NCBI RefSeq assembly: GCF_019710585.1
Contig: NZ_JAIFZQ010000008.1
Location: 124,001-188,000, forward strand
From: Arthrobacter sp. MAHUQ-56
GTDB taxonomy: Bacteria; Actinomycetota; Actinomycetes; Actinomycetales; Micrococcaceae
Length of the DNA: 64,000 bases
Direction of reading: 5' to 3'
Below, in pieces: positions 45,684 to 63,109 of this stretch (within the stretch, counting starts at the first letter, position 1; each line of letters begins with the position of its first letter). Below the pieces are notes generated by a model. The model was not told the DNA's origin. It worked only from the letters and a program-made list of their open reading frames with translations, and did no database searches. The position numbers and the translations under genes were made by a program.

Positions 45684-45994
45684 TCATTTGCGTGCCGGGC
45701 GGCGCCCCGTCCCGGAACGGGAGCTGGACGCAGCACAGACTTCACTATCTTAGTGCATGCCGCCCGGTTAGGCGATTCGCGCTTGACTCAAGGCTAGCGG
45801 CGGAGGTATCTGCCCCGTCTCCCTGTCGCGGCCTATGTGGAAAACCCCGCAGCGGCCGACCCCGCAACTCCCTAGTGGTTGCGGACCCGAAAGACCCTAT
45901 TGTCCCGGGGGAATCGGGGAGTCTAAGTTGGCCGTAAACGCGGGGCGGCTGGGGGCCTCCTGATCGATTCCCTCCTGCACGCAAGGTGGACAAG

Positions 45995-48031
45995 ATGCCC
46001 AAAGCAAAAACCCCCGCAGCCGTCGTTGCCCAATCCTTGGCCCTGGCAGTTGCCCTGCTCGTGAGCCTGATCGCGGCCGTCAGCAGCGCCCAGGCCGCCG
46101 AGAACTACGGATACCAGAGCATCAGTTACTCCGGTGTGGCCAACGCGCCTACCTCGGACAAGCCCCAGAGCAAGCTCTGGTGGAACGATGGCACGTGGTG
46201 GGCGGACATGTGGGCCACGGGAAGCGGTTGGCACATCTTCCGCCTCGACAGGGCAACCCACGCATGGGTGGATACCGGCATCCTCAACGACAACCGCAGC
46301 AACACGCTGGCGGACACGCTGTGGGACGGCAACAAGCTGTACATCGCCTCGCACGTTGTCACGGTATCGGGTGACTCGAGTACCAAGCCATCGGTCTCCG
46401 GCCAGCCCGCCAAGCTTTACCGGTACAGCTATGCTTCGGGCAAATACACGCTGGACTCCGGGTTTCCCACCACTATCACCAACAACAGCAGCGAGTCGAT
46501 GACCATCGACAAGGACACCACGGGGGCAATCTGGGCCACCTGGACCCAGGTGTCGGGAAGCTCCACCTCCGGCTACACCAGCAGCGTCTACGTGAACGCA
46601 TCCGCCCCGGGCGGTACCACATGGGGAACGCCCTTCATCCTGCCCGTGGCGGATCCAAACCCGGCGCCGGATGATATCTCCGCGGTCGTCGCCTTTGGGA
46701 AAAACAAGATCGGGGTGATGTGGAGCGACCACAGTTCCAACGCTGTCTACTGGGCAACCCGCACCGACGGAACCTCCCCCACGGCGGCATCATCCTGGAA
46801 CTTCCAGCCTGCGGTCCAGGGCAAGGGCCAGGCGGATGACCACTTGAACATCAAGGCCCTCATTGCCGACACGGCGGGACGTGTCTACGCCGCAGTGAAG
46901 ACGAGCCTGAATGACATCTCGACCGACAAAACACTTCCGGAGCTGCAACTGCTGGTGTTCAAGCCGGGAACGGGCTCCTTCACCAAGTCGACCATCGCCA
47001 CCATTGCTGACTGCGTCACCCGGCCGCAAATACTGCTGGACACCGCAAACAACCTGGTCAGGGCGTTCTACACGGGACCGTCCACGTCGGTATCCGGCTG
47101 CGCGTATTCGGGCATACCAGGCAGTATCTACGAAAAGACTGCCTCCATGGACAACCCCGTCTTCGGCAGCGGCCGGGGAACCCCGGTCATCCAGGACGGG
47201 GCGTCGGCCAACATGAACGATGTCACCACCACCAAACAGAGCGTAAACGCCACCACCGGCGTCGTGGTCATGGCCAGCAACAAGGCCACGCAGCGCTACT
47301 GGTACTCGGACCGGCCGCTGGGAACGGCACCCTCGCCGTCGCCCTCGCCGTCGCCCTCGCCCTCGCCGTCACCCTCGCCCTCCCCGTCACCCTCACCGTC
47401 TCCAACGGGGGCCATCAGCGTAGTGGGCACGGCCAGTAACTACTCCGGCACTGCCACCACCATTACGCTGACGAAGCCGTCGGCGGCTGCCGCCGGCGAC
47501 GTCCTGGTTGCATCCTTTACCGCAGACCAGAACCCCTCGATCAGTACTGCCCCCGCCGGGTGGACGCCAATCGTCAACGGGCTCAAGATCAGCACGGGAG
47601 CCAAGCTGTTTTCGTACTATCACGTCGTCGGAACGGGTGATGGGTCCTCCTACTCCTGGACCACCAGCCCGGCGGTGAAGTGGGGCGGGGGCATCACGGC
47701 CTACCGCGGCGTCAACACCACCACACCCCTGGACAGTGGCGTGGCAACCAAGGTGGACGCCACCTACTCGGCCACCAGCATCACGGTCCCTGGAATCACC
47801 ACCGCGAGCAACGGCGCCCTCCTGATCGGCGGCGTGGGGTTCGACAGTGGCAACCCCGCCGCGACACCGCCCGCCGGATGGACCGAACGCTACGAGGCTG
47901 CGGGCGGCCAGGTAGCAGAGCAGGCCGACAAGCCGCAGTCCACCGCCGGCGCCAGTGGCACCGCTACGTGGACCCTTTCAAGCCCCAAGGGAGTGGGGGC
48001 ATGGCAGGCGGCATTGAAACCCGCCAGTTGA
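45995..48031 (+). CDS. Secreted two-domain protein with Ser-Pro linker
   Basis: 678 residues. A signal peptide (1-34, ends SSAQA) precedes a propeller-like domain with repeating Trp-rich strands (WWNDGTWWADMW, IWATWTQVSGSS, GVMWSDHSSNAVYWA) to about 440. A (Ser-Pro) linker (446-470) leads to a C-terminal beta-sandwich (475-678, GDVLVASFTADQNPS). No LPXTG or membrane anchor, so it is released or bound non-covalently. ATG 45995 follows AAGGTGG. Opens the polysaccharide locus; it may bind or process the polymer. Confidence 0.8.
   Translation: MPKAKTPAAVVAQSLALAVALLVSLIAAVSSAQAAENYGYQSISYSGVANAPTSDKPQSKLWWNDGTWWADMWATGSGWHIFRLDRATHAWVDTGILNDNRSNTLADTLWDGNKLYIASHVVTVSGDSSTKPSVSGQPAKLYRYSYASGKYTLDSGFPTTITNNSSESMTIDKDTTGAIWATWTQVSGSSTSGYTSSVYVNASAPGGTTWGTPFILPVADPNPAPDDISAVVAFGKNKIGVMWSDHSSNAVYWATRTDGTSPTAASSWNFQPAVQGKGQADDHLNIKALIADTAGRVYAAVKTSLNDISTDKTLPELQLLVFKPGTGSFTKSTIATIADCVTRPQILLDTANNLVRAFYTGPSTSVSGCAYSGIPGSIYEKTASMDNPVFGSGRGTPVIQDGASANMNDVTTTKQSVNATTGVVVMASNKATQRYWYSDRPLGTAPSPSPSPSPSPSPSPSPSPSPSPSPTGAISVVGTASNYSGTATTITLTKPSAAAAGDVLVASFTADQNPSISTAPAGWTPIVNGLKISTGAKLFSYYHVVGTGDGSSYSWTTSPAVKWGGGITAYRGVNTTTPLDSGVATKVDATYSATSITVPGITTASNGALLIGGVGFDSGNPAATPPAGWTERYEAAGGQVAEQADKPQSTAGASGTATWTLSSPKGVGAWQAALKPAS
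47330..47405 (+). repeat. Hexanucleotide tandem repeat encoding Ser-Pro
   Basis: About 12.5 imperfect copies of CCSTCS-type hexamers code for the (Ser-Pro) linker of the secreted protein. Length changes by whole units keep the reading frame. Confidence 0.9.
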
Positions 48032-48094: not shown

Positions 48095-48276
48095 GTGAAC
48101 CCTGCGGTTCAGTGCCTGGACCATTGCAGGTACCCGCAATTTCCACATTCTTCCCCCCGCACACCCACACACGGGCGGACCTCCGGAACCACGCCAGTCG
48201 CGGGCGGAATAGCTTGGCAGCGTACGGCAAAAGCGGCAAGCAGCGACAAGAGAAACCGCCGGAAAAGGGAGCAACC

Positions 48277-49944
48277 ATGGCAAAAGAAGAGGTCCCGCAA
48301 ACTGACTGGACCTTGTCAGGTCCCTTTACCGCGCCTGCCCGTCCGCAACATCAACCTCCAGGAGGGATAGCTCAGTTGAGTAACCAGGATATTGCCGCTG
48401 GCAACGAGGGATCCGGGGCCGGCCTTGGCCTGAGGGACTATGCCCGGATAGCCCGGACCTACTGGAAGTTCATCACGGTGGTGACCCTGGTCTTCACCGT
48501 GGCAGCAATGGCGTGGAGCTCCATGCGGCCCCGCGTCTATGCCGCCGAGGCCAGCGCGGTGGTGGTTGCAGCCGGAACGGAAAGCGTCAGCAGCCTCCTC
48601 GCCGGGGACACGCTCGCCAAGGCGAGGGCCAAGAACTACAAGTCCCTGGCTGAATCGCGGCTCGTTGCGGACAACGTCAGTGCTTCCACGGGAGTGAAGA
48701 TGACCGGCGCGGAACTGCTGGACTCCGTCAGCGTCAATGTTCCCCGCGACACGGCCGAAATCCGGATCCACGCCGAGTCCTCCGACCCCACCACTGCACA
48801 GAAAGTCGCTGACGCGTGGGTCGCCGAGCTGGGCAGGCAGGTTCAAGAGAGGGAGAGGGCGTCTGCCACTGCGGCAGCAGGCCAGCCCGCGCCTGCGGCG
48901 GTGCCGCCGCTTTCCCTGGTTTCCCTGGACGCGGCCACCGTTCCCACGGCTCCCGTCTCTCCCGGCGTTGGTTTGTCTACGGCTTCCGGTGCGCTCATGG
49001 GCCTCCTTCTGGGCTACGTCGCCGCGCTCCTGCGGCACCGCCTGGACCGGCGGGTCCGGACCGCAGCAGAGGTTGAGAAGCTCTTCTCCGTACCGGTGGT
49101 TGGAGCGCTTCCCGTCGATTCCACGCTGCAAGGTGGCAACAAAGTGTTGGAGAGCCCGTCACGCAAGCCCGGTGCATACGGGCATAACCCGGCATTCGCT
49201 GAAGCACTGCGTGAACTGCGCACCAATTTGACCTTCCTCGACGTCGACAACCCGCCCCGGATCATCGTCGTCACGAGTTCTGTGAGCGGGGAAGGCAAAT
49301 CAACCATCGCCGCCAACCTGGCCTCCGCCATGGCGGCGGCAGGCGAGGACGTCGTCGTTGTCGATGGTGACCTCAGGCATCCCAGCATCGCCCGTATCTT
49401 CGGCGTGGTTCCGGGCATCGGCATCACGGACATACTGACCGGAAAAGCGCGCGTGGACGACGTTCTCCAGCAACGGAGCGACCTGCCCAACCTGCGGATC
49501 CTTGGATCCGGCCGGATTCCCCCGAACCCGAGCGAACTACTGAGCTCGCGGGCAATGAAGCAGCTGATCTGTTCCCTGTCGGAGAGAGGCGTCGTCATCA
49601 TTGACGCTCCCCCGCTGCTCCCGGTCACCGACGCCGTGCTCCTGGCGCGCGTCGCCGACGGTGCCATCGTGGTTGTCAGGGCCGGCCGGACCACGAAGGA
49701 ACAGCTCTCGAAGTCCCTCGGAAACCTTCGAAGGGTCAGCGCGGGCGTTCTCGGCACACTGCTGAACTGTGTACCGGCAAAAGAATTTGACGGCTACTCG
49801 TACTACACGCCCGATCCGGAACCTGCCGAGGCGGCCGTTCCCAAAGACCACGATGTTGCACCGCATGCAAGGCGGCGGGAACTTCCTCCCCCCGTCTCCG
49901 AAGCCGGCGAAGACACCTACAGCAGGAGCGTCTCTTCATCCTAG
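48277..49944 (+). CDS. Polysaccharide co-polymerase with BY-kinase domain (Wzz/CapAB type)
   Basis: 555 residues. Wzz-like N-terminal part: membrane helix 1 (about 68-88, WKFITVVTLVFTVAAMAW), extracellular domain, helix 2 (236-258). C-terminal bacterial tyrosine kinase: Walker A SGEGKST, Walker A' VVDGDLRHP, Walker B VVIIDAPP, and a Tyr cluster (GYSYYT) for autophosphorylation. Controls chain length and export of the polymer. ATG 48277 is used, but TTG 48376 with AGGAGGG upstream is an equally good start. Confidence 0.9.
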   Translation: MAKEEVPQTDWTLSGPFTAPARPQHQPPGGIAQLSNQDIAAGNEGSGAGLGLRDYARIARTYWKFITVVTLVFTVAAMAWSSMRPRVYAAEASAVVVAAGTESVSSLLAGDTLAKARAKNYKSLAESRLVADNVSASTGVKMTGAELLDSVSVNVPRDTAEIRIHAESSDPTTAQKVADAWVAELGRQVQERERASATAAAGQPAPAAVPPLSLVSLDAATVPTAPVSPGVGLSTASGALMGLLLGYVAALLRHRLDRRVRTAAEVEKLFSVPVVGALPVDSTLQGGNKVLESPSRKPGAYGHNPAFAEALRELRTNLTFLDVDNPPRIIVVTSSVSGEGKSTIAANLASAMAAAGEDVVVVDGDLRHPSIARIFGVVPGIGITDILTGKARVDDVLQQRSDLPNLRILGSGRIPPNPSELLSSRAMKQLICSLSERGVVIIDAPPLLPVTDAVLLARVADGAIVVVRAGRTTKEQLSKSLGNLRRVSAGVLGTLLNCVPAKEFDGYSYYTPDPEPAEAAVPKDHDVAPHARRRELPPPVSEAGEDTYSRSVSSS

Positions 49945-50037: not shown

Positions 50038-51165
50038 ATGTCCAGGTCGGTTGTGGTCATCGGGACGCGCGGCTACCCGAGCTATTACGGTGGTTTTGAG
50101 ACCGCCGTGCGGCGCTTGGCACCGTTTCTTGCCGACGCCGGATGGGACGTCAACGTGTACTGCCGGCCCGGCCAGACCAAAGACGAAGACGCCGACCGGG
50201 ACCCGCGCGTGCGAACCACGACCACTGTGGGGCTGGAGAGCAAGTCGCTGAGTACCCTCTCCTTCGGTTTGTCCTCGGTTCTTCACGCAGTCTGGCAGAA
50301 GCCCCAGGTTGCATTGGTCATGAACGTGGCCAATGGCTTTTTCCTTCCACTCCTCAAGCTTCGGGGAATACCCACTGTGGTGAATGTGGATGGAATTGAA
50401 TGGGAACGCGCCAAATGGAGCCGTTTCGCAAAGTTCGTATTCCGGCAGGGGGCACGGCTGACGGCGCGTTACGGCACCATCCTGATCAGCGACTCGCGCG
50501 AAATCCAACGCCGCTGGAAACAAGACTTTGGCAGGGACAGCGTCTTCATTCCCTATGGAGCGAACCTCGAAAGTCCACATGAAATCGTGCCGGGCCTGGA
50601 ACCGGACTCCTACGTGCTGATGGTTGCCCGGTTTGTTCCCGAAAACACTGTTTCCGAGTTCTTCCAGGCGGCCGAAGTCCTCGCCGAGCAGCATCCAGTG
50701 GTCATCGTCGGTTCCAGTGGCTACGGCGGAACGCTGGACGAAGCCGCACAGCGCCTGGGCGAGCACGCCAACGTCCAGTGGCTTGGCCACGTCAGTGACG
50801 ACCAGAAGCTCCTGTCGCTCTGGCACCATGCAGGCGTCTACTTCCATGGCCACAGCGTGGGGGGAACGAACCCGGCACTGGTCCAGGCGATGGCATGCGG
50901 GGCGCCCGTCGTAGCGCGGCATACTCCCTACAACGCCGAGGTCCTGACAACGGAGGAACACCTGGTGTCACCGGACCCCGCAGCCATTGAGCAGGCATTG
51001 CGCCGGATGTTGAACGACCAGGACTTGAGGGCCAAGGCCAGGGCAGCAAACAGGGAACGGGCGGCGGTGCACTACAACTGGGAAGATGTTTGCACGGGTT
51101 ATGAACTGACGCTCCAGGAAGCGATCCTGGCCGGGAAGAGGAGCCGACGGGGGGCACGGAAGTGA
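50038..51165 (+). CDS. Glycosyltransferase (DUF1972/GT4-like)
   Basis: 375-residue GT-B enzyme. N-terminal half starts MSRSVVVIGTRGYPSYYGGFE, the usual opening of DUF1972 rhamnosyltransferase-like proteins; the C-terminal donor half has FIPYGANLE and the GT4-type HGHSVGGTNPALVQAMACG. AGAGGAG precedes the ATG. Adds a sugar to the lipid-linked repeat unit on the cytoplasmic side. It overlaps the next glycosyltransferase by 4 nt. Confidence 0.9.
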   Translation: MSRSVVVIGTRGYPSYYGGFETAVRRLAPFLADAGWDVNVYCRPGQTKDEDADRDPRVRTTTTVGLESKSLSTLSFGLSSVLHAVWQKPQVALVMNVANGFFLPLLKLRGIPTVVNVDGIEWERAKWSRFAKFVFRQGARLTARYGTILISDSREIQRRWKQDFGRDSVFIPYGANLESPHEIVPGLEPDSYVLMVARFVPENTVSEFFQAAEVLAEQHPVVIVGSSGYGGTLDEAAQRLGEHANVQWLGHVSDDQKLLSLWHHAGVYFHGHSVGGTNPALVQAMACGAPVVARHTPYNAEVLTTEEHLVSPDPAAIEQALRRMLNDQDLRAKARAANRERAAVHYNWEDVCTGYELTLQEAILAGKRSRRGARK

Positions 51166-52611: not shown

Positions 52612-53925
52612 CTACAGGTGCTGCAGTGCCTGCCCACCCGCGGCGCTGTACGACGGCGGCGCCTGCCGCGGCGTCCTGAGGCCGAGGACTGCGCCTGCGG
52701 CCAGCCAAAGAACCGGAGTCGACGCAATCGACGACGCGGATTCGGACGAAGCCACGGCCAGGACGAAGGCAATCGTGAGCCAGACCGCAAGGCTCGCACC
52801 CCTCGGCACCCGGCGGAGCAGCTTCCAAATGCGAACAGTGAGCAGCAGTACGGCGATGATGATGGGCCAGCCCAGCCAGGCGAAATAAAGGCCCAGGAGG
52901 CTCTCGCTGCCCACGCCGGTGGACGCTCCTTCCAGTGCCGCCTGGTACCCGGTGGTGCCGAAGCCCAGCCCAAGGGGCGACTGCAGGCCCAGCATGAGGC
53001 CGGAGAACAGTCCGTCTGAGTGGCTCGCCGTATTGCCTTGCTCAACGAATGTCGAGAAGAGGTAGCCGCCAAGTCCGATGCCCACGAGCAGGCCGGCGTA
53101 TTTGCCGATTCTTACCCAGATCAGATAGACCAGCGTCACTACGAGGAAGATCAGGATGCCGGCGCGGGCGTAGGCGAAGAAGAGGGACAAGCCGATTGCT
53201 GCCAGCATGCCGATCCGGGCGAAACCACGGAGCTTTGCGACGGCGGCAAATGCTGCCAGCCCCAGCAGGAAGCCCATAACCGGCGGGTTCATGAAGGGGC
53301 CACCCGGGCGGAGGGCCGCTTCGCCATCAGTGACGCCATCCGCGAAGTACGCGGGTGGAAGCCCCATCCTCATTCCTTTCGGGTTGCCGCCAACAACGTT
53401 CAGGTAGTACCAGGCGGGATCAATCAGCGGAGCCTGCTTGATCTCCTCTACGATGACCCACGCCACTGTCAGGGCGCCGAAAACCAGCAGCCAGCTGACC
53501 ACCTTGGACCACTGGATGAGGTCCCGGTACACGTAGCCTGCGAAGACGAGCCCCAGGGGCATGAGTACCTGCCGCGCCTGGGCGATGCCGATTCCACTGT
53601 CCGGAGAACGAATGAACCCAATAGCCACGAACAGGACCAGGAGCAACAGCAGCCCAAGGGCCCTTTGCAGCCGCCTGTCCGAAGCGGTGAAAGCCCTGAT
53701 GACGGCGGCCAGAACCAGGACGGCGACCGGAACGTCATCAACGTATTGGAAAGCACTCGAGTGGGTGAGGCTGAGCAGGGGCGCCTGGGACCACCCTGCG
53801 GCGATCACCAGCCCGATAAGCACATGGTAGGAGCGCCCCAGGATCAGCGCGAGACTGATCAGTGCCAAGGCGACCACAAGGGAAAGCAATTGCACGGGTT
53901 GGTCGCTCCTCTGCTTATCGGTCAT
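52612..53925 (-). CDS. O-antigen ligase/polymerase-like membrane protein (Wzy candidate)
   Basis: 437 residues with about 12 hydrophobic segments and one long extracellular loop (about 165-205, WYYLNVVGGNPKGMRMG), as in Wzy polymerases and WaaL ligases. The segment GLQSPLGLGFGTTGYQ near 330-345 resembles the family end region. Would polymerise or ligate the repeat units made by the cluster. Antisense to the preceding genes. Specificity unknown. Confidence 0.85.
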   Translation of the reverse strand: MTDKQRSDQPVQLLSLVVALALISLALILGRSYHVLIGLVIAAGWSQAPLLSLTHSSAFQYVDDVPVAVLVLAAVIRAFTASDRRLQRALGLLLLLVLFVAIGFIRSPDSGIGIAQARQVLMPLGLVFAGYVYRDLIQWSKVVSWLLVFGALTVAWVIVEEIKQAPLIDPAWYYLNVVGGNPKGMRMGLPPAYFADGVTDGEAALRPGGPFMNPPVMGFLLGLAAFAAVAKLRGFARIGMLAAIGLSLFFAYARAGILIFLVVTLVYLIWVRIGKYAGLLVGIGLGGYLFSTFVEQGNTASHSDGLFSGLMLGLQSPLGLGFGTTGYQAALEGASTGVGSESLLGLYFAWLGWPIIIAVLLLTVRIWKLLRRVPRGASLAVWLTIAFVLAVASSESASSIASTPVLWLAAGAVLGLRTPRQAPPSYSAAGGQALQHL

Positions 53926-54088: not shown

Positions 54089-55261
54089 CTACAAGGACTG
54101 AAGATCCTGCCCGGTGCAGAGAGCGGCGGCGACTGCGTTCCTCCAGTACGCGACGAAAGGCGCAACAGCCTCCCGGGCATCACGTTCCCTGCGCAGCACC
54201 GCGATCTGGTTTCCAAGGCGGTCAAGGACGGCGGGGTCCGTAATGGTCTTGTATGCGGCTTCTGCAAGCGCCGGAACCGAGGCGGGCACCACCACGAGGC
54301 CCCCCGCCCTGGCGGCTTCCCCCAAAGTCCCGGCGTCAAAACCGATCACCGGAGTGCCATAGGCAAAGGCCCGGGAAACCACGCCCGATGCCGGCAGCAT
54401 CTGCCCGTAAAAGCGGCTCGTCTTGTCGTAAGGCAGCAGGATGGCCCGCACGGATTCAAAAAAAGCGTCCTCCTGGGCGCCCTCAACAGCACCAAGGATG
54501 GTAACTCCAGGCACGGGAGGAAGTTTCTCCGTTCCGCGGCCGGCAACAATGACTTCCACATCGCGGGGAATTCCGTGGCGCAGCTCAACGAGCCTTTCAA
54601 ACCCTTTGCCCTTGGCTGCGTGGCCATAAAGTCCGACGGCGAGCGGCCGGTCCGGGAGCGGCGCAAGAGAAGGCCTGGGCGGGACGAAATGTACCGCGGG
54701 CATCACCGGAGAGCCCGGGAAAGTCTGCCGGAGTGCGCCGGCTCCGACCTCGCTGAGCGCGAAAAGGGCGGTGTTCCGCAGCAGCAGCCTTTCCAGCCAT
54801 GCGCTGACGGGACGAAGCGGCAGGTGGATTCCGTGCTGGAGAAGTTTGCTCTTCGCGACCGGCTTCAGCCGGAAGGGCCACCAGACCGCCCACGGGGGGT
54901 CGTGCACGGTTGCCGTGGTGATGACACTGGCGCCGCGGCCGGCGAGGAGCCAAAAAGGAGCCAGCGACGCCGCGGACAACTCGAAGTGGAGTACCACCGG
55001 GCCGCGGGAAAGGGACGTGCCTATCTCCGCGGAGAGCTGTTTCCGGTAACGGAACAAATCAAGAATCCCGGCGCTGCCCGGGCCAAAGGTTCTGACCTCG
55101 CGATAGGAGGAAAACAGCGGGGCGGCAGCGGCGGCAAATTCCCCTGCATAATCTCCGACCCCGCCGGAATTCTCCTGCGGCGCGACAAGAATGAGCGTTG
55201 CCGGAATTGGCTCATTGTTACTTATGGGAACTGCGTCTGCTTTGTTCACGATTCTCCGCAT
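54089..55261 (-). CDS. Glycosyltransferase family 4-like
   Basis: 390 residues. N-terminal LILVAPQENSGGVGDYAGEFA has the Gly-rich GGVGDY opening of GT-B enzymes; the C-terminal half has AVGLYGHAAKGKGFERLVEL, VIVAGRGTEKLP and ILLPYDKTSRFYGQMLPASG. Divergent from the flippase. Donor and acceptor unknown; third glycosyltransferase of the locus. Confidence 0.84.
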   Translation of the reverse strand: MRRIVNKADAVPISNNEPIPATLILVAPQENSGGVGDYAGEFAAAAAPLFSSYREVRTFGPGSAGILDLFRYRKQLSAEIGTSLSRGPVVLHFELSAASLAPFWLLAGRGASVITTATVHDPPWAVWWPFRLKPVAKSKLLQHGIHLPLRPVSAWLERLLLRNTALFALSEVGAGALRQTFPGSPVMPAVHFVPPRPSLAPLPDRPLAVGLYGHAAKGKGFERLVELRHGIPRDVEVIVAGRGTEKLPPVPGVTILGAVEGAQEDAFFESVRAILLPYDKTSRFYGQMLPASGVVSRAFAYGTPVIGFDAGTLGEAARAGGLVVVPASVPALAEAAYKTITDPAVLDRLGNQIAVLRRERDAREAVAPFVAYWRNAVAAALCTGQDLQSL

Positions 55262-55346: not shown

Positions 55347-55365
55347 TTATGGGGAAAACCCCTAA
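55347..55365. promoter_or_regulatory. Inverted repeat before the flippase gene
   Basis: TTA-T-GGGG-AAAA-CCCC-TAA (55347-55365) lies in the divergent region of the glycosyltransferase and flippase genes, with a symmetrical shape like a transcription factor site. Confidence 0.4.
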
Positions 55366-55450
55366 TCCCACAAACATTTCCCCGTCCGGGCCCCCGGGCC
55401 GCACATCGGCAGTAGTCTGCTGCAATGTGGCCACAGGAAGGCTCCGAACC

Positions 55451-56902
55451 ATGACCAACGTCGCTGGTGGACTTGCCCGCGTCGGCTTCCGGGGAGCCGT
55501 CTGGCAAGGGCTCGCGCTCATCTCCGGCAAGGGCATCGTGCTCCTCACGACGATCGTGCTGGCGCGCCTCCTATCGCCGGAACAGTACGGCCTCGTGGCT
55601 GCGGCGCTGGTCCTCATGGCCTACATGGAGACCATCGCCGACGCCGGCGTGGCCCAGGCCCTGGTTTACCTGCCTGCCTCGGGGGTAGCGGCGCGCTCAG
55701 CGCTGCTCGTTTCGGTGGTCCTGGGTGCAGGCCTTGCGGTCCTGGCCATTATCGCTGCGCCCTGGATCGGCGGGCTGTTCCAGCTGCCCGACGTCGAACC
55801 CCTGGTGAGGGTGTTGGCCATCTCCCTGCTCGCCACCGCACTTGGGGCCGTCCCGGAAGCGCTGCTCCGGCGCGACCTGCAATTCAAGAAGCTGGCCGTG
55901 GCGCCCGTCTGCCGGGCACTGACCACAGGTGCCGTCAGCCTCACGCTCGCCTTCGCGGGCTACGGGGCTTTCTCCCTGGCAGCCGGCACTGCAAGCGGAT
56001 CGGTTGCCTACGCTGCCACGTGTTGGTTCCTGATACGGCGCGACGCCCCGTGGCAGCTCTGGCGCGTAGCGAAGGACGCGATCCGCGCCACCCTCAAGTT
56101 CGGCGTCCCGGTGGCCGGCAGCAATCTGCTGGCCCGGCTGATTTTCGACATCGACTACGTGATCATTGCCTCGGTACTGGGTGCACAGGCCCTGGGTTAC
56201 TACACCCTGGCCTTCCGACTCCCTGAAGCGCTGATCATCAATGTCTTCTTTGTGCTTTCCACCGTCCTGTTCCCCCTCTATACGCAGGTGCAGGACCAGC
56301 CGGGACGCCTGCGTGAAGGCTACCTGAAGGGTGTACGGATCCAGTCCCTCTACGGGATGACGTCCGGCGTTGGCCTGGCGGTCCTGGCACCGGTGATTGT
56401 CCCCCTGGTGTTTGGTTCGAAGTGGAGCGACTCAGTGGTGCCGCTGGTGTTCCTGTCCCTGTATGCCGCGGCTCGCTCCCTGGGGGCCGGCGCCAACGAC
56501 GTGTACAAGGCCATAGGCCGTCCGGGACTGTCCATCACCTTCTCCAGCGTCAGGTTGGCAGTGTTGGTGCCGGTCCTGATCCTGTCCACCCAGTGGGGCA
56601 TCGTCGGCGTCGCATGTGCGCAGATGGCCACGGCAGTGCTGTTTGCCTTCGGCATGCAGGCGGTGGCGGCAAGGGTCCTGGGAATTGGAGCGCGGGCCCT
56701 GCTCCGCGCAATCCTGCCTGCGCTGGCGTGCAGCCTCGCGGTGGTCCTGGCGGGACTGGAAATCCTCCTGCTGCCCTACCTTGGCGGCCTGCCCACCGCC
56801 GCTTTGGTACTGGTCACCTCGGTGGCTGCCGTCTACCTCGTCCTGCGCCTGGGCTTTGCGTCACTCCACGACGAGCTGGTGGTCCTCCTCCGCCGTCGCT
56901 GA
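55451..56902 (+). CDS. Oligosaccharide flippase (Wzx-like)
   Basis: 483-residue membrane protein with about 14 hydrophobic helices, of the polysaccharide transporter/MOP superfamily. Family opening RVGFRGAVWQGLALISGKGIVL, then VLARLLSPEQYGLVAAALVLM. AGGAAGG precedes the ATG at 55451; the open frame upstream runs through the regulatory region. Turns lipid-linked repeat units across the membrane for polymerisation. Confidence 0.9.
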   Translation: MTNVAGGLARVGFRGAVWQGLALISGKGIVLLTTIVLARLLSPEQYGLVAAALVLMAYMETIADAGVAQALVYLPASGVAARSALLVSVVLGAGLAVLAIIAAPWIGGLFQLPDVEPLVRVLAISLLATALGAVPEALLRRDLQFKKLAVAPVCRALTTGAVSLTLAFAGYGAFSLAAGTASGSVAYAATCWFLIRRDAPWQLWRVAKDAIRATLKFGVPVAGSNLLARLIFDIDYVIIASVLGAQALGYYTLAFRLPEALIINVFFVLSTVLFPLYTQVQDQPGRLREGYLKGVRIQSLYGMTSGVGLAVLAPVIVPLVFGSKWSDSVVPLVFLSLYAAARSLGAGANDVYKAIGRPGLSITFSSVRLAVLVPVLILSTQWGIVGVACAQMATAVLFAFGMQAVAARVLGIGARALLRAILPALACSLAVVLAGLEILLLPYLGGLPTAALVLVTSVAAVYLVLRLGFASLHDELVVLLRRR

Positions 56903-56962: not shown

Positions 56963-57982
56963 TCAGCGCGGCGTCCAGGCCGTCACGGCGTGCCGCCAAA
57001 GCCAGAAGTCACGGTCAGCGGTGACTGCCGCCTGCAGGTGCCCGGTGTCGCCGCCGTACGTCCCCTCGCCGTTGAGCCGGTAGGCAAGGGTGGCCGCCGA
57101 ACGCGCCCACGTGGCGATGACCAGGTAGGGAAGCAGCCCGGTGTCCACGTTCCGGAGCCTGAGGTGCTCCGTCACCGACGACACCGCCCATCCGCCGGGA
57201 CTGAAGGCGTTGTTGAAGGCCTGGAGCTGGAGCTGGCGGGACGACAACGCCTGCTCCCGCGACTGGCCGACGTACTGCAAATAGAAGATCAGGTCATGGG
57301 CCGGCAATCCATCGAGGCGGGAACGCTCCCAGTCAACAACCTGAAGGCGGCCGTCGGGCTGGAGAAACAAGTTCTGGTAGCTGAGGTCGCCGTGTTCCAC
57401 CACGGCCGGAAGCTGCTCCGACCGCAACGGCGCCAACGCCTGGTGTGTGAGGTCGACGAGGGCGGCCACTTCCGTCTGCCCCGGGAACAGCGAGGCAAGC
57501 GCAGCCAAGGGACGGCCTACTGTGCGCTCGTACCAATCCGGGTTTTCCGCGACCGGCCTGGTGCAGGGCAAGCCGGCGACGAAATCCATCCCGGCCTGTA
57601 CTGCCCTGGCGAAGTCTTCCACAACCCGCCGGGGCTCCAACAGATCGCCGCCGACGGCCGTTTCGATGAGCACTGTCTGTCCGCCGACGTCCAGCACCCC
57701 GACTACTTCCGGAGCACCTTGCCCCGACCCCACGCCCAAGGACTTGAGCTCAAGGAGCACGTCAGCCTCTTTTCGTACGCTGGCGTTGTCCCCGGGTTGG
57801 CGGGGGACTTTGACTACCAGGGTTGGGCGGGCCGCACCTTCAGCAAAGACCAGCGCCACAACGTGCCGTGACGTGACGAACTGCGGTGTCAGCAGGAGGG
57901 TGGTCCACTTGCGGGGAACGCCGAACCGGGCAAGCCCAAGATCCCCGTAATGGTCGGCAAGCAGCTGGTCAATGTAGTTCAC
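56963..57982 (-). CDS. APH-fold phosphotransferase
   Basis: 339 residues from GTG 57982 (VNYIDQLLADHYGDLG). Kinase motifs: HGDLSYQN at 197-204 (catalytic Asp199, Asn204) and VVDWE with the metal-binding Asp217. The first lobe has the nucleotide-binding LVVKVPRQPG. This looks like an aminoglycoside/choline/homoserine kinase fold. In a polysaccharide locus it more likely phosphorylates a sugar or small acceptor. GTGA overlap ties it to the fusion protein upstream. Confidence 0.85.
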   Translation of the reverse strand: MNYIDQLLADHYGDLGLARFGVPRKWTTLLLTPQFVTSRHVVALVFAEGAARPTLVVKVPRQPGDNASVRKEADVLLELKSLGVGSGQGAPEVVGVLDVGGQTVLIETAVGGDLLEPRRVVEDFARAVQAGMDFVAGLPCTRPVAENPDWYERTVGRPLAALASLFPGQTEVAALVDLTHQALAPLRSEQLPAVVEHGDLSYQNLFLQPDGRLQVVDWERSRLDGLPAHDLIFYLQYVGQSREQALSSRQLQLQAFNNAFSPGGWAVSSVTEHLRLRNVDTGLLPYLVIATWARSAATLAYRLNGEGTYGGDTGHLQAAVTADRDFWLWRHAVTAWTPR

Positions 57983-59913
57983 GCGGAGTCCTTCCCGGGC
58001 GCTGCCTCCGGCCACCGACCGATTACCGTTCCGGCTGGAGCGGCGACATCGAACAGGCCCAGGGTCAATGCCAGGCCGGCCACTGCAGCCTTGGCCTTGC
58101 CAAAACGGGCGCCGGAGTAATGGGCCAAGGTATCCCGGACGGCGGCCACTGACGCTGTGGGCACCAGGCGTTCCGGTCCTTCGAACCTGGGCACATGCCA
58201 ATAGACGGCCACATCTTCAAAACCCAGTTTCTCCATGGCCCGCTTCCACCCCGCAAGGGTACGCGGGCCGGAACGTGGTCCGAACGAGCTCTGCACCTGC
58301 ACGCACACCCATCCGTTCGGGCGGAGGGAGGCAGCGGCCACTTCGACCAGGGCGAGGTCCGGCCGGGACAGCAGAACGGTATCGAGATCGGGCACCGCCG
58401 CCCGCTCTTTGCCGGCTTCGATGCTGCGGGCGGCAGGATCCAGCAGGCTGATGGCGGCTACTGCCTCGGGGCTGATCCTGCCGCCGTAACCAACTTTCCC
58501 TGTTTTGCCCTGGGGAAGCAGGAAGCGCCAGTCCATCAGCATCCACTGGTGCAGGGGAATGGGGTCCGGGTCTGCCGGCCCCGCCGTCTTTTCGCCGCTC
58601 ACGACCTTCCAGAGAAGTTCGGACGCCTTGCGTCGAACCCGGGATTCGGATTCACTGGCATCGATGATGCGCGCCGAAGGAAGGTGTGCTGCCAGCTCCA
58701 GATAGGCGTTCCGCCACTCCTCGAGTACCTCGGGGCTGTGTTCGCCTTTACGGGCGTACATCACCTCGCCGGGCACATCAAGCACCAGGACAAGGTCCGG
58801 CCGCGGTTGGACGTACAGCGCCAGGTCATCCGAGAGCCTCCGCAGCCGGCTCTTCGCCTGCCCGCCGCCAAGCATCCCGTCCTGGGCCAGCCGGTCCAGG
58901 AGCACCAGCCTCCCCCGCAGGGACTGGTACCTCGCCGTGAATCCCCCTCGAAGGATGCGGAACACCTTCCTGCCGAGGATGCCGCCCGGGACCTTTGCGA
59001 TCCACCGGTCGGAAGGGCTGCTGGCCCAGAGGCCCATGTAGACGTATGACGAGGGCAGCGGGCAATGGGAGCGCAGGCCGTGGAGCAGCGTCGTTTTGCC
59101 GGCTCCATCCGGGGCAAGGACCCCGATGACAGGCCCCGCTCCCTGAAGACGCGGGCCAACACGCCGCAGGGCATGGTGGGCCAGGCCGACCAGCCTGGGC
59201 GGGCGCGCACTCCCCCGCCACCGGGACTTCATCCCCGCGGCGAATGCAGGCACCTCATGGAACCTGCCGGACTGCAACACATCCAGAAGGGCTGCGGCGG
59301 TTCCTTTCCCCAGTTTGCGGTCCACAAAGGCCGCCACAGGGTCCGTGGCCGATGCCAACACGCGGGCGGCCCTCGCAGCTTCCACTCTTCCGGGGGCTAT
59401 TTCGCCCTTGTCCAGGACCAGGTGCAGGATGTGGAGCCAGGCCTGGTCAGCGGGGTCCGGCAGCCACAAGGGACCCAGACGGACCCTCCGCCGCAGGCAA
59501 CCCTCCGCAAGCCCCGTGCCAAGTTCCTGGAACCGCCCGAAACTGATGTCCGAAACAATGTCGAGCTTGAGCCAAAGATCATCGCCGGGAAAGTACCGGA
59601 AGTAGAAACGGTGGCTGCCGTGGCCCAAGGCCCGGACGCGGCGGAACCCCACGCCGTCAAGAAGGTCGTCCAGGCCGCGCACCATTTCCCGGGGAACAAG
59701 GATGTCCACGTCCCCTGCAGGGCGGAGCAAATCATTCTCGCCCCTCAGCACCACCCATGGCAGGCCGGTGCTTTCCAAAGCCGCCAGCGCTGCTTCCAGG
59801 CCGCGGTGCACCTTCGGGATGGGCCGGCCATCCTGGACCGGCCGACGTCCGCCATTCAATTCCGCCTTGGTAAATGAGGCCGGCAGGTGGGGAGACACTG
59901 ACAATTTACTCAC
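57979..59913 (-). CDS. Three-domain fusion: nucleotidyltransferase-like, thymidylate-kinase-like, methyltransferase-like
   Basis: 644 residues. Domain 1 (about 35-235) is a nucleotidyltransferase-like fold with LPWVVLRGEND and the metal pair Asp68/Asp70 in AGDVDILV. Domain 2 (about 260-440) is P-loop kinase-like with Walker A GVLAPDGAGKTT (264-275) and LVLLDRLAQDGM, as in thymidylate-kinase relatives. Domain 3 (about 450-635) resembles a SAM-methyltransferase second half (SLRPNGWVCVQVQSSFGP), but the Gly-rich SAM loop is not clear. Overlaps the APH gene by 4 nt. Function unknown. Confidence 0.82.
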   Translation of the reverse strand: MSKLSVSPHLPASFTKAELNGGRRPVQDGRPIPKVHRGLEAALAALESTGLPWVVLRGENDLLRPAGDVDILVPREMVRGLDDLLDGVGFRRVRALGHGSHRFYFRYFPGDDLWLKLDIVSDISFGRFQELGTGLAEGCLRRRVRLGPLWLPDPADQAWLHILHLVLDKGEIAPGRVEAARAARVLASATDPVAAFVDRKLGKGTAAALLDVLQSGRFHEVPAFAAGMKSRWRGSARPPRLVGLAHHALRRVGPRLQGAGPVIGVLAPDGAGKTTLLHGLRSHCPLPSSYVYMGLWASSPSDRWIAKVPGGILGRKVFRILRGGFTARYQSLRGRLVLLDRLAQDGMLGGGQAKSRLRRLSDDLALYVQPRPDLVLVLDVPGEVMYARKGEHSPEVLEEWRNAYLELAAHLPSARIIDASESESRVRRKASELLWKVVSGEKTAGPADPDPIPLHQWMLMDWRFLLPQGKTGKVGYGGRISPEAVAAISLLDPAARSIEAGKERAAVPDLDTVLLSRPDLALVEVAAASLRPNGWVCVQVQSSFGPRSGPRTLAGWKRAMEKLGFEDVAVYWHVPRFEGPERLVPTASVAAVRDTLAHYSGARFGKAKAAVAGLALTLGLFDVAAPAGTVIGRWPEAAPGKDSA

Positions 59914-60415
59914 CCTTCATGACAGTCCGAAACACGGAACACGCAGGTGTCCCGCCGGCGCAGCGGCCGTTCCGGGAGACTATGCCCAGGCTGCTCCAGT
60001 ATCACGAGTAGAAGGTACTCACTTTTTCTGCAGGTGGGTTCCCACACTACGCAGGTAAGGGGCCTCCCGGCGGCAATCAGGGCTGGCACGGGGATGTGCG
60101 CATGCAGCAAACCATTAGGTAGGGGAGTGCGGGAACAGCGGGGCTTAGGTAGGTAGGGGCATGCCCCGCCATCTTGAGCAAAAGCGGGGGCGATCTTGAG
60201 CAAATCCAAAGCAGGATCGTATGGCGCGGCTTTCATTTTCGCGGCTATATTCTCATCTACGGCTGGGTACCGTGCCCGAGGCAGTACGCTGAGGGCCCCC
60301 GCCCTGAAGGTTATTCACCTGACTTCCAGGACGGTGAGCTCGCTTTTTAAAACGGGCTGTGTCAAAAACTACAACCGAAAGAATGCCGGTCTCCTTCTTC
60401 GAGAATTGGGGACCC
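59914..60415. promoter_or_regulatory. Repeat-rich regulatory region before the LuxR gene
   Basis: 500 nt without a gene between the divergent fusion and LuxR genes. Direct repeat ATCTTGAGCAAA at 60171-60182 and 60193-60204 (22 bp apart). GGTARGGG-type boxes at 60054-60062, 60118-60125 and 60148-60159, the last running into the palindrome GGGGCATGCCCC (60156-60167). The layout suggests cooperative binding of a regulator, probably the LuxR protein itself. Confidence 0.5.
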
Positions 60416-63109
60416 ATGTCTTTATTAGGCCGAAACAAGGAATTGGATAGGGTCCTGTCCGTAATCCGCGGACCCAAGGACGCCGCCTTGGCAGTCACCG
60501 GCGGACATGGGGTGGGGAAGTCCGCGTTGCTTTCAGAAATTCCCACACTCTCCGAATACCGGACGGTCTTCCTGGGAGCCACCGCATTCGAATCGGACTG
60601 GCCCCTGTCCGGACTGACCGCCCTCCTCAACGCCATGGACGATCCCGTACTCAACAGGATTTCGGATGAGCTGCTGCGCGACGCGGCCGGAACCCTGGAT
60701 GTGCCGGCGATCTCCTCACTGCTCCTCAACGGCCTGCACCAGCGCTCATCCGCCCGGACCGTCATCGTGATCGACGACGCCGACCAGCTGGATCCGTGCA
60801 GCCAGGCGGTCATCGGATTCCTTGCCCGCCGCCTGGCGGGAACCGACATCGCCTTGGTCGTTTGCCTGCGCGATGATAACCCGGCCAGTCCGTTCAGCGG
60901 CCTGCCCGTGCTGTGCCTTCAGCCGCTGAACTACAGCGATACCGTACGGATGTTGGAGGCCATCCCCACCAAGCAGGCAACGACGGCTGTTGCACACGCC
61001 GTAGCCGCCGCCAGCCGCGGAAACCCGCTCGCCGCCGTCGAACTCCACAGCCGGCTCCTGGAGCGGCACGCGGAGGGCAAATTCGCGCTCCCGGTCCCGT
61101 TGCCCTGCAAGGGCAGCTTTGAGGCGGAATTCGCCTTGCTTGTCGGCGGACTCAGCGCACCCGCCCGTCACCTCCTGGACATCCTGTCCCTTTCGTACCG
61201 GAGCGACATCCCCAGCCTCGAAAAGGTCATGCCGGACGTCTGGGCCGGCCTGGACGAACTGCTGACCCGCGGGATAGTCCGCCGGACGGGCCCGTATGTC
61301 GGAATCCGCGACCAGCTGCTGCGGGGCTACATTTTTGCCTCCATGACGCCGGCCGTCCGGACGGCCAGCCACCGCGCCTTGGCGGAAGCCTCGGCTGACA
61401 CCGATCCCTACGCCCGCAGGTGGCACCTCAGTTTCACGGCGTTGGAACGCCAGACACCCTTCGGCCTGCTTCGCCACGCCGTAGACCTGATACGGGGCGG
61501 CGAGGTGGCTTTCGCCGTCGAATACGTGGAACGCGCGCTGAGCATCAATCCCTGGGAGGCGGAAACGGCAGCCCGGCTGGCCACGGTAGCTGAGCTGCTG
61601 TTCAACCGCGGGGAGTTCGTCTATGCCAGGCGCTACCTGGAGTGGGCCCAACGGATTACCCGAAACCCCGCCCTGATCCTGCGGCTGACGGGCCTCTCCT
61701 TTGAGATCGACTTCATTCAAGGGGCAGCAGTGCGTTCAAGCATGGTGCTGCGCCTGGTGAAGGAATTCGGCCAACACGACCCGTCCTTCGCCGCGAACCT
61801 CCTGGCCGTCGCTGCCATCTACTATGCCGAGCGGTGGGAACTGGCCGACGCACGCGAACTGCTTGGCTATGCCAAAAACTTCCAGGATTCCGCATCCGCG
61901 GCATGCCTGGAGATCGAAGGACAGGCGGAGCTGCTGACCGAATGCATCAGCGGCAGCAGCGAACACCTGGGCCGCAAGCACAACCCGGAAGGCGAAAGCA
62001 GCCTTGCCGCACTCCTGGTCCAGGGCCGGGCACTCAGCTACGCGGAGCGCTATGACCACGCACAGGAAATCTTTGCCCGGGTCCGTGCCTCCCAGGAATC
62101 CGCGCATGCCAACTGGCGGGAAACCGCACTGTTCCTGGCGGCGGACAACGAGATCAGGGCCGGAAACATCAGGGCAGCAGTCAAGCTGATCGATGAACTG
62201 GAGGTCCGCGAACCACAGCTTAAGTACTTGCGCGGAATGCGGCATGTCTTCCGCGTCTGGAAGGCGCACGCGCTGGGCGACGAGGCCCTGGCCCACACGT
62301 ATGCGGCCGAGGCCCAACGCCACGCCGGCGCGGACAGCCACCCCGCAGTCACGGCGCAGCTTGCGGCATGGCAGGGCCACTTCGCCCTGCTCCGGGGCGA
62401 TCTCGCCGAGTCGCTTGCCCAACTGTCGCGGGCAGCCGAAATTGGCCTGCGCTTCAGCAGTCCCACCCTGCTGCGGTGCGACGCGGACCTCGTGGAAGTA
62501 CTGGTCCGGCTGGGACGCCACCGCGAGGCCACGCAGGCACTGGTGAACCTCGAGAGCCGCTCCGTGGGCCTGCGGTCCCCGTGGCTGATGGCTGCGGTTG
62601 CCCGCAGCCGCGCGATCCTTGCCGACGGGGAGCAATCACTGCAGCTGTTCGCCCAGGCACTGGAGGGACGGAATGCACGCGATTCCCTGCTGGAGCGGGC
62701 CAGGACCATGCTGGCCTACGCAGAACGGCTGAAGGCCCTGGGCCGGCTGCGGGATGCCCGTGACGGGATGCTGCGGGCGAAGGTCATGTTCGACGAGATC
62801 GGCGCTGACGCGTGGGTCCAGCAGGTGGATGCGTTGCTGCTCGATGAAAGGGTGGAGGCACCAAGCCAGCAGGGGAACCCTGCCCTGCTGCTCCTCGCCG
62901 ACCATGAACGCGTGCTGGCGAAAATGGTTGCCCGCGGAATGCGGAACAAAGAAATCGCCGCCACGCTCTTCGTTTCGGTGCGGACCGTGGAAGTACGGCT
63001 GACGGCCATTTACCGCAAACTCGGAGTTGAATCGCGGGCCCAGCTGACGGCCCTCGCGGCGAGCAAGGCAAAACCCGTCATGGAGCCGTACGTACTGCCT
63101 GTTCTCTGA
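60416..63109 (+). CDS. LuxR-family ATP-binding regulator (LAL type)
   Basis: 897 residues. N-terminal STAND/AAA-like ATPase with Walker A GGHGVGKSALL near 30-40 and Walker B VIVIDDADQ, a long helical TPR-like middle (350-800) and a C-terminal LuxR helix-turn-helix (MVARGMRNKEIAATLFVSVRTVEVRLTAIYRKLG by position about 825-858). Such proteins integrate small-molecule or protein signals. Start 60416 (MSLLGRNKEL) is chosen; GTG 60359 and ATG 60383 also fit. Between the two parts of the polysaccharide locus, so probably its activator. Confidence 0.9.
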   Translation: MSLLGRNKELDRVLSVIRGPKDAALAVTGGHGVGKSALLSEIPTLSEYRTVFLGATAFESDWPLSGLTALLNAMDDPVLNRISDELLRDAAGTLDVPAISSLLLNGLHQRSSARTVIVIDDADQLDPCSQAVIGFLARRLAGTDIALVVCLRDDNPASPFSGLPVLCLQPLNYSDTVRMLEAIPTKQATTAVAHAVAAASRGNPLAAVELHSRLLERHAEGKFALPVPLPCKGSFEAEFALLVGGLSAPARHLLDILSLSYRSDIPSLEKVMPDVWAGLDELLTRGIVRRTGPYVGIRDQLLRGYIFASMTPAVRTASHRALAEASADTDPYARRWHLSFTALERQTPFGLLRHAVDLIRGGEVAFAVEYVERALSINPWEAETAARLATVAELLFNRGEFVYARRYLEWAQRITRNPALILRLTGLSFEIDFIQGAAVRSSMVLRLVKEFGQHDPSFAANLLAVAAIYYAERWELADARELLGYAKNFQDSASAACLEIEGQAELLTECISGSSEHLGRKHNPEGESSLAALLVQGRALSYAERYDHAQEIFARVRASQESAHANWRETALFLAADNEIRAGNIRAAVKLIDELEVREPQLKYLRGMRHVFRVWKAHALGDEALAHTYAAEAQRHAGADSHPAVTAQLAAWQGHFALLRGDLAESLAQLSRAAEIGLRFSSPTLLRCDADLVEVLVRLGRHREATQALVNLESRSVGLRSPWLMAAVARSRAILADGEQSLQLFAQALEGRNARDSLLERARTMLAYAERLKALGRLRDARDGMLRAKVMFDEIGADAWVQQVDALLLDERVEAPSQQGNPALLLLADHERVLAKMVARGMRNKEIAATLFVSVRTVEVRLTAIYRKLGVESRAQLTALAASKAKPVMEPYVLPVL

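Follow-up and report, generated by a model that had tools for sequence, protein, structure and literature searches.

The window, the whole 64,000-nucleotide stretch of DNA from a soil-dwelling Arthrobacter analyzed here, encodes a single chain in which a nucleotidyltransferase-like domain (NT), a kinase domain with a predicted thymidylate-kinase fold (K), and a C-terminal domain with a predicted methyltransferase fold that lacks the SAM loop (C) are joined. It is accompanied by the genes for an APH-fold kinase and a Wzx-type flippase (Table 1). The association of these four parts, the swapping of C between fusion partners, the predicted folds of K and C, and the conservation of the catalytic residues were computed directly. 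At a probability of roughly 0.35, the favored reading is that a cytoplasmic phosphorylation/nucleotidylation module decorates the lipid-linked repeat unit of a Wzx/Wzy-type polysaccharide before it is flipped, with C serving as a non-methylating adaptor.

Table 1. Positions of the fusion gene, its parts, and the surrounding genes in the window.
Feature	Position	Strand	Remarks
NT-K-C fusion gene	57979..59913	minus	644 aa, GTG start, 644-codon frame
NT domain, residues 34-250, NTP_transf_5-like	59164..59814	minus	PF14907
NT acids D68-V-D70	59704..59712	minus	D68 and D70 in 38/38 rows
Putative third NT acid, D118	59560..59562	minus	38/38 rows
K domain, residues 259-440, predicted thymidylate-kinase fold	58594..59139	minus	VIA match 5x7j; PF02223
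Walker A of K, 267-APDGAGKTT-275	59089..59115	minus	intact in 36/38 rows
C domain, residues 450-644 and stop, predicted methyltransferase fold without SAM loop	57979..58566	minus	
4-nt stop/start overlap of fusion gene and APH gene	57979..57982	minus	
APH-fold kinase gene, downstream of fusion	56963..57982	minus	339 aa, GTG start at 57982; PF01636
Wzx-type flippase gene, convergent, next after APH gene	55349..56902	plus	PF13440, E 3.4e-60
Glycosyltransferase family 4-like gene	54089..55261	minus	PF13692, E 1.9e-7
Hydrophobic protein gene, possible Wzy polymerase	52612..53925	minus	
Glycosyltransferase gene	50038..51165	plus	PF00534, E 2.5e-20
Wzc-type polysaccharide autokinase gene	48112..49944	plus	TIGR01007, E 4.7e-45
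Putatively secreted, propeller-like protein gene	45986..48031	plus	co-occurs with the module

Translation of 57979–59913 on the plus strand is interrupted by stop codons, and the open frame runs on the minus strand from 59913 to 57979. The initial annotation assigned the gene to a polysaccharide locus, which agrees with the Wzx setting and with the Pfam and NCBIfam matches of the neighboring genes. The hydrophobic protein has zero matches in Pfam and NCBIfam, and the propeller-like protein has none in Pfam above the cut-off. The real start of the flippase gene may lie downstream of the listed one. A scan for promoters returned 0 sites, and a scan for terminators returned 2 sites versus 3.3 in shuffled sequences.

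The fusion is common in the genus and not unique to this genome, as 32 non-redundant fused NT-K-C sequences, the window's included, could be aligned. The dN/dS values from nine pairs, some of which share a member and one of which is near saturation, are 0.13–0.31 for NT, 0.03–0.21 for K, 0.01–0.29 for C, and 0.40–1.41 for the 12-residue linker. An assembly error or a chance reading frame is ruled out by the 31 further fused homologs together with these values, and the purifying selection on C rules out that this domain is a decaying relic. A FastTree phylogeny of NT-K puts the split forms outside the clade that unites the 32 fused leaves (support 0.69), which suggests, with modest support, that the fusion arose once in the genus. 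Outside the genus, strongly matching relatives already have NT and K in a single chain. NT-K is therefore the older unit, and the genus-specific step is the joining of C. The initial description of three domains usually found in separate proteins consequently needs correction for NT and K, whereas the joining of C is indeed special to the genus.

The presence of the three parts and their order in the 644-residue chain, as first proposed, are borne out by profile matches, by motifs, and by the predicted folds of K and C. NT matches the NTP_transf_5 family (PF14907) with an E value of 1.1e-5 and 25.6 bits, which does not reach the curated cut-off of 31.2; the same family is matched by 25 of the 38 aligned relatives (E<=0.01). 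The NT-like residues Asp68 and Asp70 are found where they had been claimed, and together with D118 (numbering of the window's fusion) they are kept in every aligned relative. We take the three to be the catalytic acids of the nucleotidyltransferase fold. The pLDDT of NT is mostly >90 within the full-length model, for which the fold-search lists are filled by K. A sequence search with NT for solved relatives gave none at E<=0.1, the best match being a catalase at 0.13.

The predicted structure of K was matched by VIA to 5x7j with a Z score of 17.8 over 173 residues (rmsd 3.3), which corresponds to a thymidylate-kinase fold; the VIA list for the whole model refers to the K region alone. Its match to Thymidylate_kin (PF02223, E 9.6e-5) is under the cut-off, and this family is matched by 12/38 aligned members. 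The P-loop falls inside residues 264–275, the position originally given for the Walker A motif. K has the fold and the P-loop in common with dTMP kinase, but it scores only 23.6 bits with the dTMP kinase model TIGR00041, far under the NCBIfam cut-off of 83.25, and the match above this cut-off in the same genome is a separate gene at another site. A role of K as the housekeeping dTMP kinase is ruled out by these two results. The group phosphorylated by thymidylate kinases is itself a phosphate.

The coupling of the fusion to an APH-fold kinase gene, also part of the initial annotation, is seen in the 4-nt overlap of the two genes. Of the 45 non-redundant genes of the NT-K, NT-K-C, or C type that were tested, the window's own gene included, 30 have exactly this overlap with a following APH or C gene. 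The APH gene product matches PF01636 with an E value of 1.2e-12 and 48.6 bits, exceeding the cut-off of 23.2, and the catalytic set K58, H197, D199, N204, and D217 is invariant in 19/19 aligned sequences. Judged by score and catalytic residues, the gene belongs to the APH family; a sequence search for solved relatives gave none at 1e-3. APH-fold enzymes phosphorylate a hydroxyl group of their substrate.

Sugars are usually activated by a kinase and a nucleotidyltransferase in this order, and a similar division of labor can be considered here. The APH-fold kinase would phosphorylate a free sugar or polyol, K and NT would convert it to a nucleotide-activated donor for an ordinary glycosyl- or phosphotransferase, and the flippase would only share the locus. 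This explanation is somewhat less probable than the favored reading, even though the domains and the APH residues are intact and glycosyltransferase genes are nearby. It leaves unexplained both the fold of K, whose known members phosphorylate phosphates, and the fusion of C to the flippase (L070, L071) or to APH (L060, L069).

C was modeled alone from 29 rows, with a pLDDT of 88.3 and a pTM of 0.86. Compared with known folds, the model reaches a Foldseek E value of 8.6e-7. Among the Foldseek and VIA matches listed, most are methyltransferases or resemble them. By VIA, 1wzn (Z 10.8) and the anamorsin domain 4m7r (Z 10.3, rmsd 3.0, 136 residues) are counted as tied. Structure prediction of residues 450–644, which had been set beforehand as a check, thus recovers the methyltransferase fold that had been named. 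Class I SAM methyltransferases are characterized by a Rossmann-like fold, which predicted C has, and by an E/DxGxGxG loop, which it lacks. In agreement with the original remark that a clear Gly-rich loop is missing, GxGxG is absent from the first 75 residues of C in 27/29 rows. The two matches (L009, L036) are unlike a SAM loop by their position; one is GYGGG and the other falls in a later loop by alignment. The first strand of C reads VGYGG, and the helix starts four residues further on. Because the glycine-rich loop is missing from the modeled methyltransferase fold, C is probably unable to bind SAM in the usual manner. The pathway outlined in the initial annotation therefore stands in part: its phosphorylating and nucleotidyl-transferring steps would fit the motifs, whereas the suggested methylation is not supported, given the missing SAM loop.

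At the sequence level, the window's C has no match in Pfam, and the 23 C members searched there yield two stray matches (E 0.13 and 0.22, one member each). A search for solved relatives gave only methyltransferases, at an E value of 0.67. C possibly represents a new adaptor family. A methyltransferase fold without the glycine-rich loop is likewise present in the N-terminal domain of Dre2/anamorsin, and for Dre2, the yeast relative of anamorsin, calorimetry is reported to show no SAM binding (PMC3440578). Dre2/anamorsin is, however, a eukaryotic iron–sulfur protein, and sequence kinship to C was neither found nor is it claimed. Bacteria would have a counterpart of this domain in C, provided that C descends from a methyltransferase and has kept no more than a binding function.

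The combination of a methyltransferase fold with a kinase also recalls WbdD from Escherichia coli O9a, which is described as a methyltransferase joined to a kinase that first phosphorylates and then methylates the lipid-linked O-antigen. The C-APH fusions of L060 and L069 join the two folds in the same manner, and a comparable cap, in which APH phosphorylates the glycan end and C methylates the phosphate, could be imagined. It is nevertheless quite improbable. C has no glycine-rich SAM loop, and in the flippase-C fusions (L070, L071) the match to C does not start before position 73 or 95 of the 192-position profile, so that the SAM half is unmatched. The locus is of the Wzx type, whereas WbdD is described as part of an ABC-transporter pathway, and the additional NT-K part would be left without explanation. 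WbdD is moreover one chain, whereas the window joins C to NT-K and encodes APH in a separate overlapping gene, C and APH being fused only in the relatives L060 and L069.

The scan of named genomes, whose patterns sit in NT and which hence favors close NT relatives, gave 26 loci. NT-K is present in 26, C in 25, APH in 25, a Wzx flippase in 24, and the NT-K-C fusion in 21 of these, so that the survey for the same architecture with an APH neighbor, proposed at the outset, had a positive outcome. All four parts lie in a span of about 18 kb in 24/26 loci; the exceptions are L058, which runs into a contig end, and L060, in which a Pfam flippase immediately precedes C-APH. The arrangement varies. In L043, L044, L046, and L048, Wzx follows the fusion and the APH gene lies upstream, and the first three of these loci pair the fusion with a second, C-less NT-K gene. 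L057 (Arthrobacter), L059 (Geodermatophilus), and L062 (a Modestobacter MAG) encode C as a gene of its own, and the genes overlap by 4 nt where they meet; in L064, from another family, NT-K, C, and APH are consecutive separate genes. C is fused to APH in L060 and L069. L070 and L071 carry a fusion of the flippase with the later part of C, followed by APH, and a wider view of L070 (L084) has an NT-K gene directly upstream of flippase-C. In L117, L121, and L130, the chain with a K-type P-loop also carries an HGD/DWE motif of the APH type; there, the APH-like part was recognized by the analysis's own profile (E 6.7e-5, 9e-4, and 0.003) and by motifs, and APH was not called by Pfam.

Pairs of nucleotidyltransferase and kinase folds are also known from regulatory and toxin–antitoxin systems, and a pair of this kind might lie in polysaccharide loci by chance. 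Such an origin outside glycan chemistry is highly improbable in view of the Wzx flippase in 24/26 loci and its fusion to C elsewhere.

In the favored reading, the module is placed on the lipid-linked unit before flipping, and C is assigned the adaptor role, because C is also fused to the flippase. The substrates, the order of the reactions, and the role of C are what we infer from the data as a whole. The APH-fold protein would start by phosphorylating the glycan, or a polyol attached to it, at a hydroxyl group. K would subsequently act on the phosphate left by APH, since its fold relatives phosphorylate a phosphate group, and NT may then add a nucleotidyl group or, in a PsmN-like manner, a sugar-bearing group to the phosphate. 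C, having lost its SAM loop, would serve for docking or glycan binding, keeping the enzymes assembled near the flippase. If C is indeed such a binding-only former methyltransferase, the flippase-C fusions would show where the adaptor is located.

Confidence in a fixed three-step relay is lowered by motif losses, by C and APH without NT-K, and by broken frames. As read from the sequence, L064 seems to have lost the NT acids, L109 at least one of them, and the first gene of L106 both the NT and the P-loop motifs. Degenerate P-loops are seen in L043 and L044, in the second copy of each. In the surroundings of L065 and L069 (L081 and L083, respectively), C and APH are present and no NT-K match was found, and in L004 the C and APH frames look broken.

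The module might alternatively modify a protein or peptide instead of a polysaccharide, for example the co-traveling, apparently secreted propeller-like protein. Close relatives of this protein (E<1e-100) are encoded in 34/35 NT-K-positive and in 7/163 NT-K-negative genomes of the genus sample, a co-occurrence assessed by a Fisher test that ignores the kinship of the genomes. The propeller gene overlaps the NT-K gene in L084 and lies directly before C-APH in L083. A peptide is also the substrate of PsmK and PsmN: in pseudomycoidin, according to reviews, a kinase and a nucleotidyltransferase-like partner put phosphates and then hexoses on a serine, PsmN adding one or two hexoses to the phosphorylated residue. 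The resemblance, drawn from these review descriptions, lies in the pairing of a kinase with a nucleotidyltransferase-like protein; the same descriptions make PsmK an HPr-kinase homolog, whereas the kinases here are of the thymidylate-kinase and APH folds. A protein target is improbable, as the propeller-like protein looks secreted and the enzymes look cytoplasmic, and the flippase link favors a lipid-linked substrate. Seven genomes, furthermore, carry the propeller protein without NT-K, and the surrounding stretches of 9–20 kb show no NT-K either.

Surface glycans owe part of their charge and recognition to phosphate-linked ornaments. To our knowledge, few enzymes put such ornaments on lipid-linked units, and the parts are tied together here by natural fusions. 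The fusion was not filed under PF14907, dTMP kinase, SAM methyltransferase, or WbdD, because a tested feature of each is missing. It can be proposed, though only tentatively, that an undescribed actinobacterial system for glycan decoration is at hand. A nucleotidyltransferase-like domain would work with two kinases, each of its own fold, to attach a phosphate-linked ornament to the lipid-linked repeat unit, and a retired methyltransferase domain turned adaptor would organize them, its fusion partner being NT-K in some cases and the second kinase or even the flippase in others. No published description of the combination was found in the literature searched, which leaves out most subscription journals; only one report seemed related (PMC13390465). 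It describes wps-1 from Actinoplanes missouriensis, a Wzx/Wzy cluster in which the genes annotated as methyltransferase and as kinase-like are both required for normal sporangia. The likeness concerns the annotation of WpsF, WpsG, and WpsI, where a methyltransferase is predicted alongside a protein-kinase-like protein; wps-1 differs by its sulfotransferases, and a nucleotidyltransferase is not named there.

Across genomes, 41/198 of the genus sample have a match, and 35 are left after six with weak or short matches (G253, G281, G330, G348, G358, G402) are set aside. The family sample, which includes the genus, gives 6 matches in 245 genomes. L005, an ABC transporter, and L006, a thymidylate-kinase-like frame without NT, were set aside as well, and the module was not found in PLSDB plasmids by tblastn at 1e-5. 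In the phylum sample, C occurs in 3/396 genomes, one of which is the window's own, and in the class sample it occurs in 13/394. The latter comprise two from the window's genus, three with clear C (L069-L071), a remnant with APH (L072), and seven (L073-L079) that were set aside as mostly ordinary methyltransferases, L076 resembling something else. The phylum tally for NT-K is 325/396 genomes, the great bulk of which match in the P-loop or K only. Strong matches to NT and K are found in eight genomes (G000, G465, G604, G612, G515, G448, G440, G732); weaker NT matches beside K (L112, L114, L116, L118) were left out of this count. Most of the strong NT-K genes have no C within 1.5 kb, the only one outside the own genome that does being in G465, and these C-less forms outside the genus count against the favored reading. 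Within the same distance, an APH gene follows NT-K in G465 and G515.

The secreted-looking protein encoded in the same window follows the nucleotidyltransferase-like and thymidylate-kinase-fold pair (NT-K) of the fusion through the genus sample, where close relatives of it occur in 34 of 35 NT-K-positive genomes as against 7 of 163 NT-K-negative ones, in a count that ignores kinship between genomes. In one relative's locus (L084) its gene touches the NT-K gene, and in another (L083) it touches a gene that joins the methyltransferase-fold part (C) to the aminoglycoside-phosphotransferase-like kinase (APH). Malectin, PKD or CBM96 domains are found in its relatives, and the own genome holds four copies. 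The LuxR-type regulator-like gene is retained beside the fusion in L037-L040, L045, and L061. The NT-K gene of Arthrobacter sp. VKM Ac-2550 has, immediately 5′ of it, a gene for a family 16 glycosyl hydrolase (L057:6580-7395).

Features of the module, its relatives, and its neighbors
Feature	Location	Remark
Secreted-looking protein gene	45986-48031	Travels with NT-K in the genus sample
LuxR-type regulator-like gene	60359-63109	Adjoins the fusion, divergent from it; type judged from sequence alone
Second NT-K copies without C	L043:2108-3586, L044:2109-3650	Each paired with APH
NT-K genes in tandem	L106:1-2859, L107:1-2808	Two genomes
K-type P-loop and APH-type HGD/DWE motif in one chain	L117:532-2256, L121:565-2130, L130:457-2841	

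Both second NT-K copies carry a degenerate Walker A (GPEGAGRTT in L043 and GPEGADKTT in L044), despite which the catalytic acids of NT are retained. From its sequence, the first tandem copy in L106 looks to have lost these acids and the P-loop alike. In a relative, L004:1200-3483 looks like a module copy in decay; its C and APH reading frames appear broken up and shifted, and the adjoining flippase gene looks intact. Pfam did not call APH in the three single chains that combine both motifs. The own genome contains a second thymidylate-kinase-like match (L087, G000:C12:145384-145917), which scores 52.2 bits, under the cut-off, and is distinct from the true dTMP kinase.
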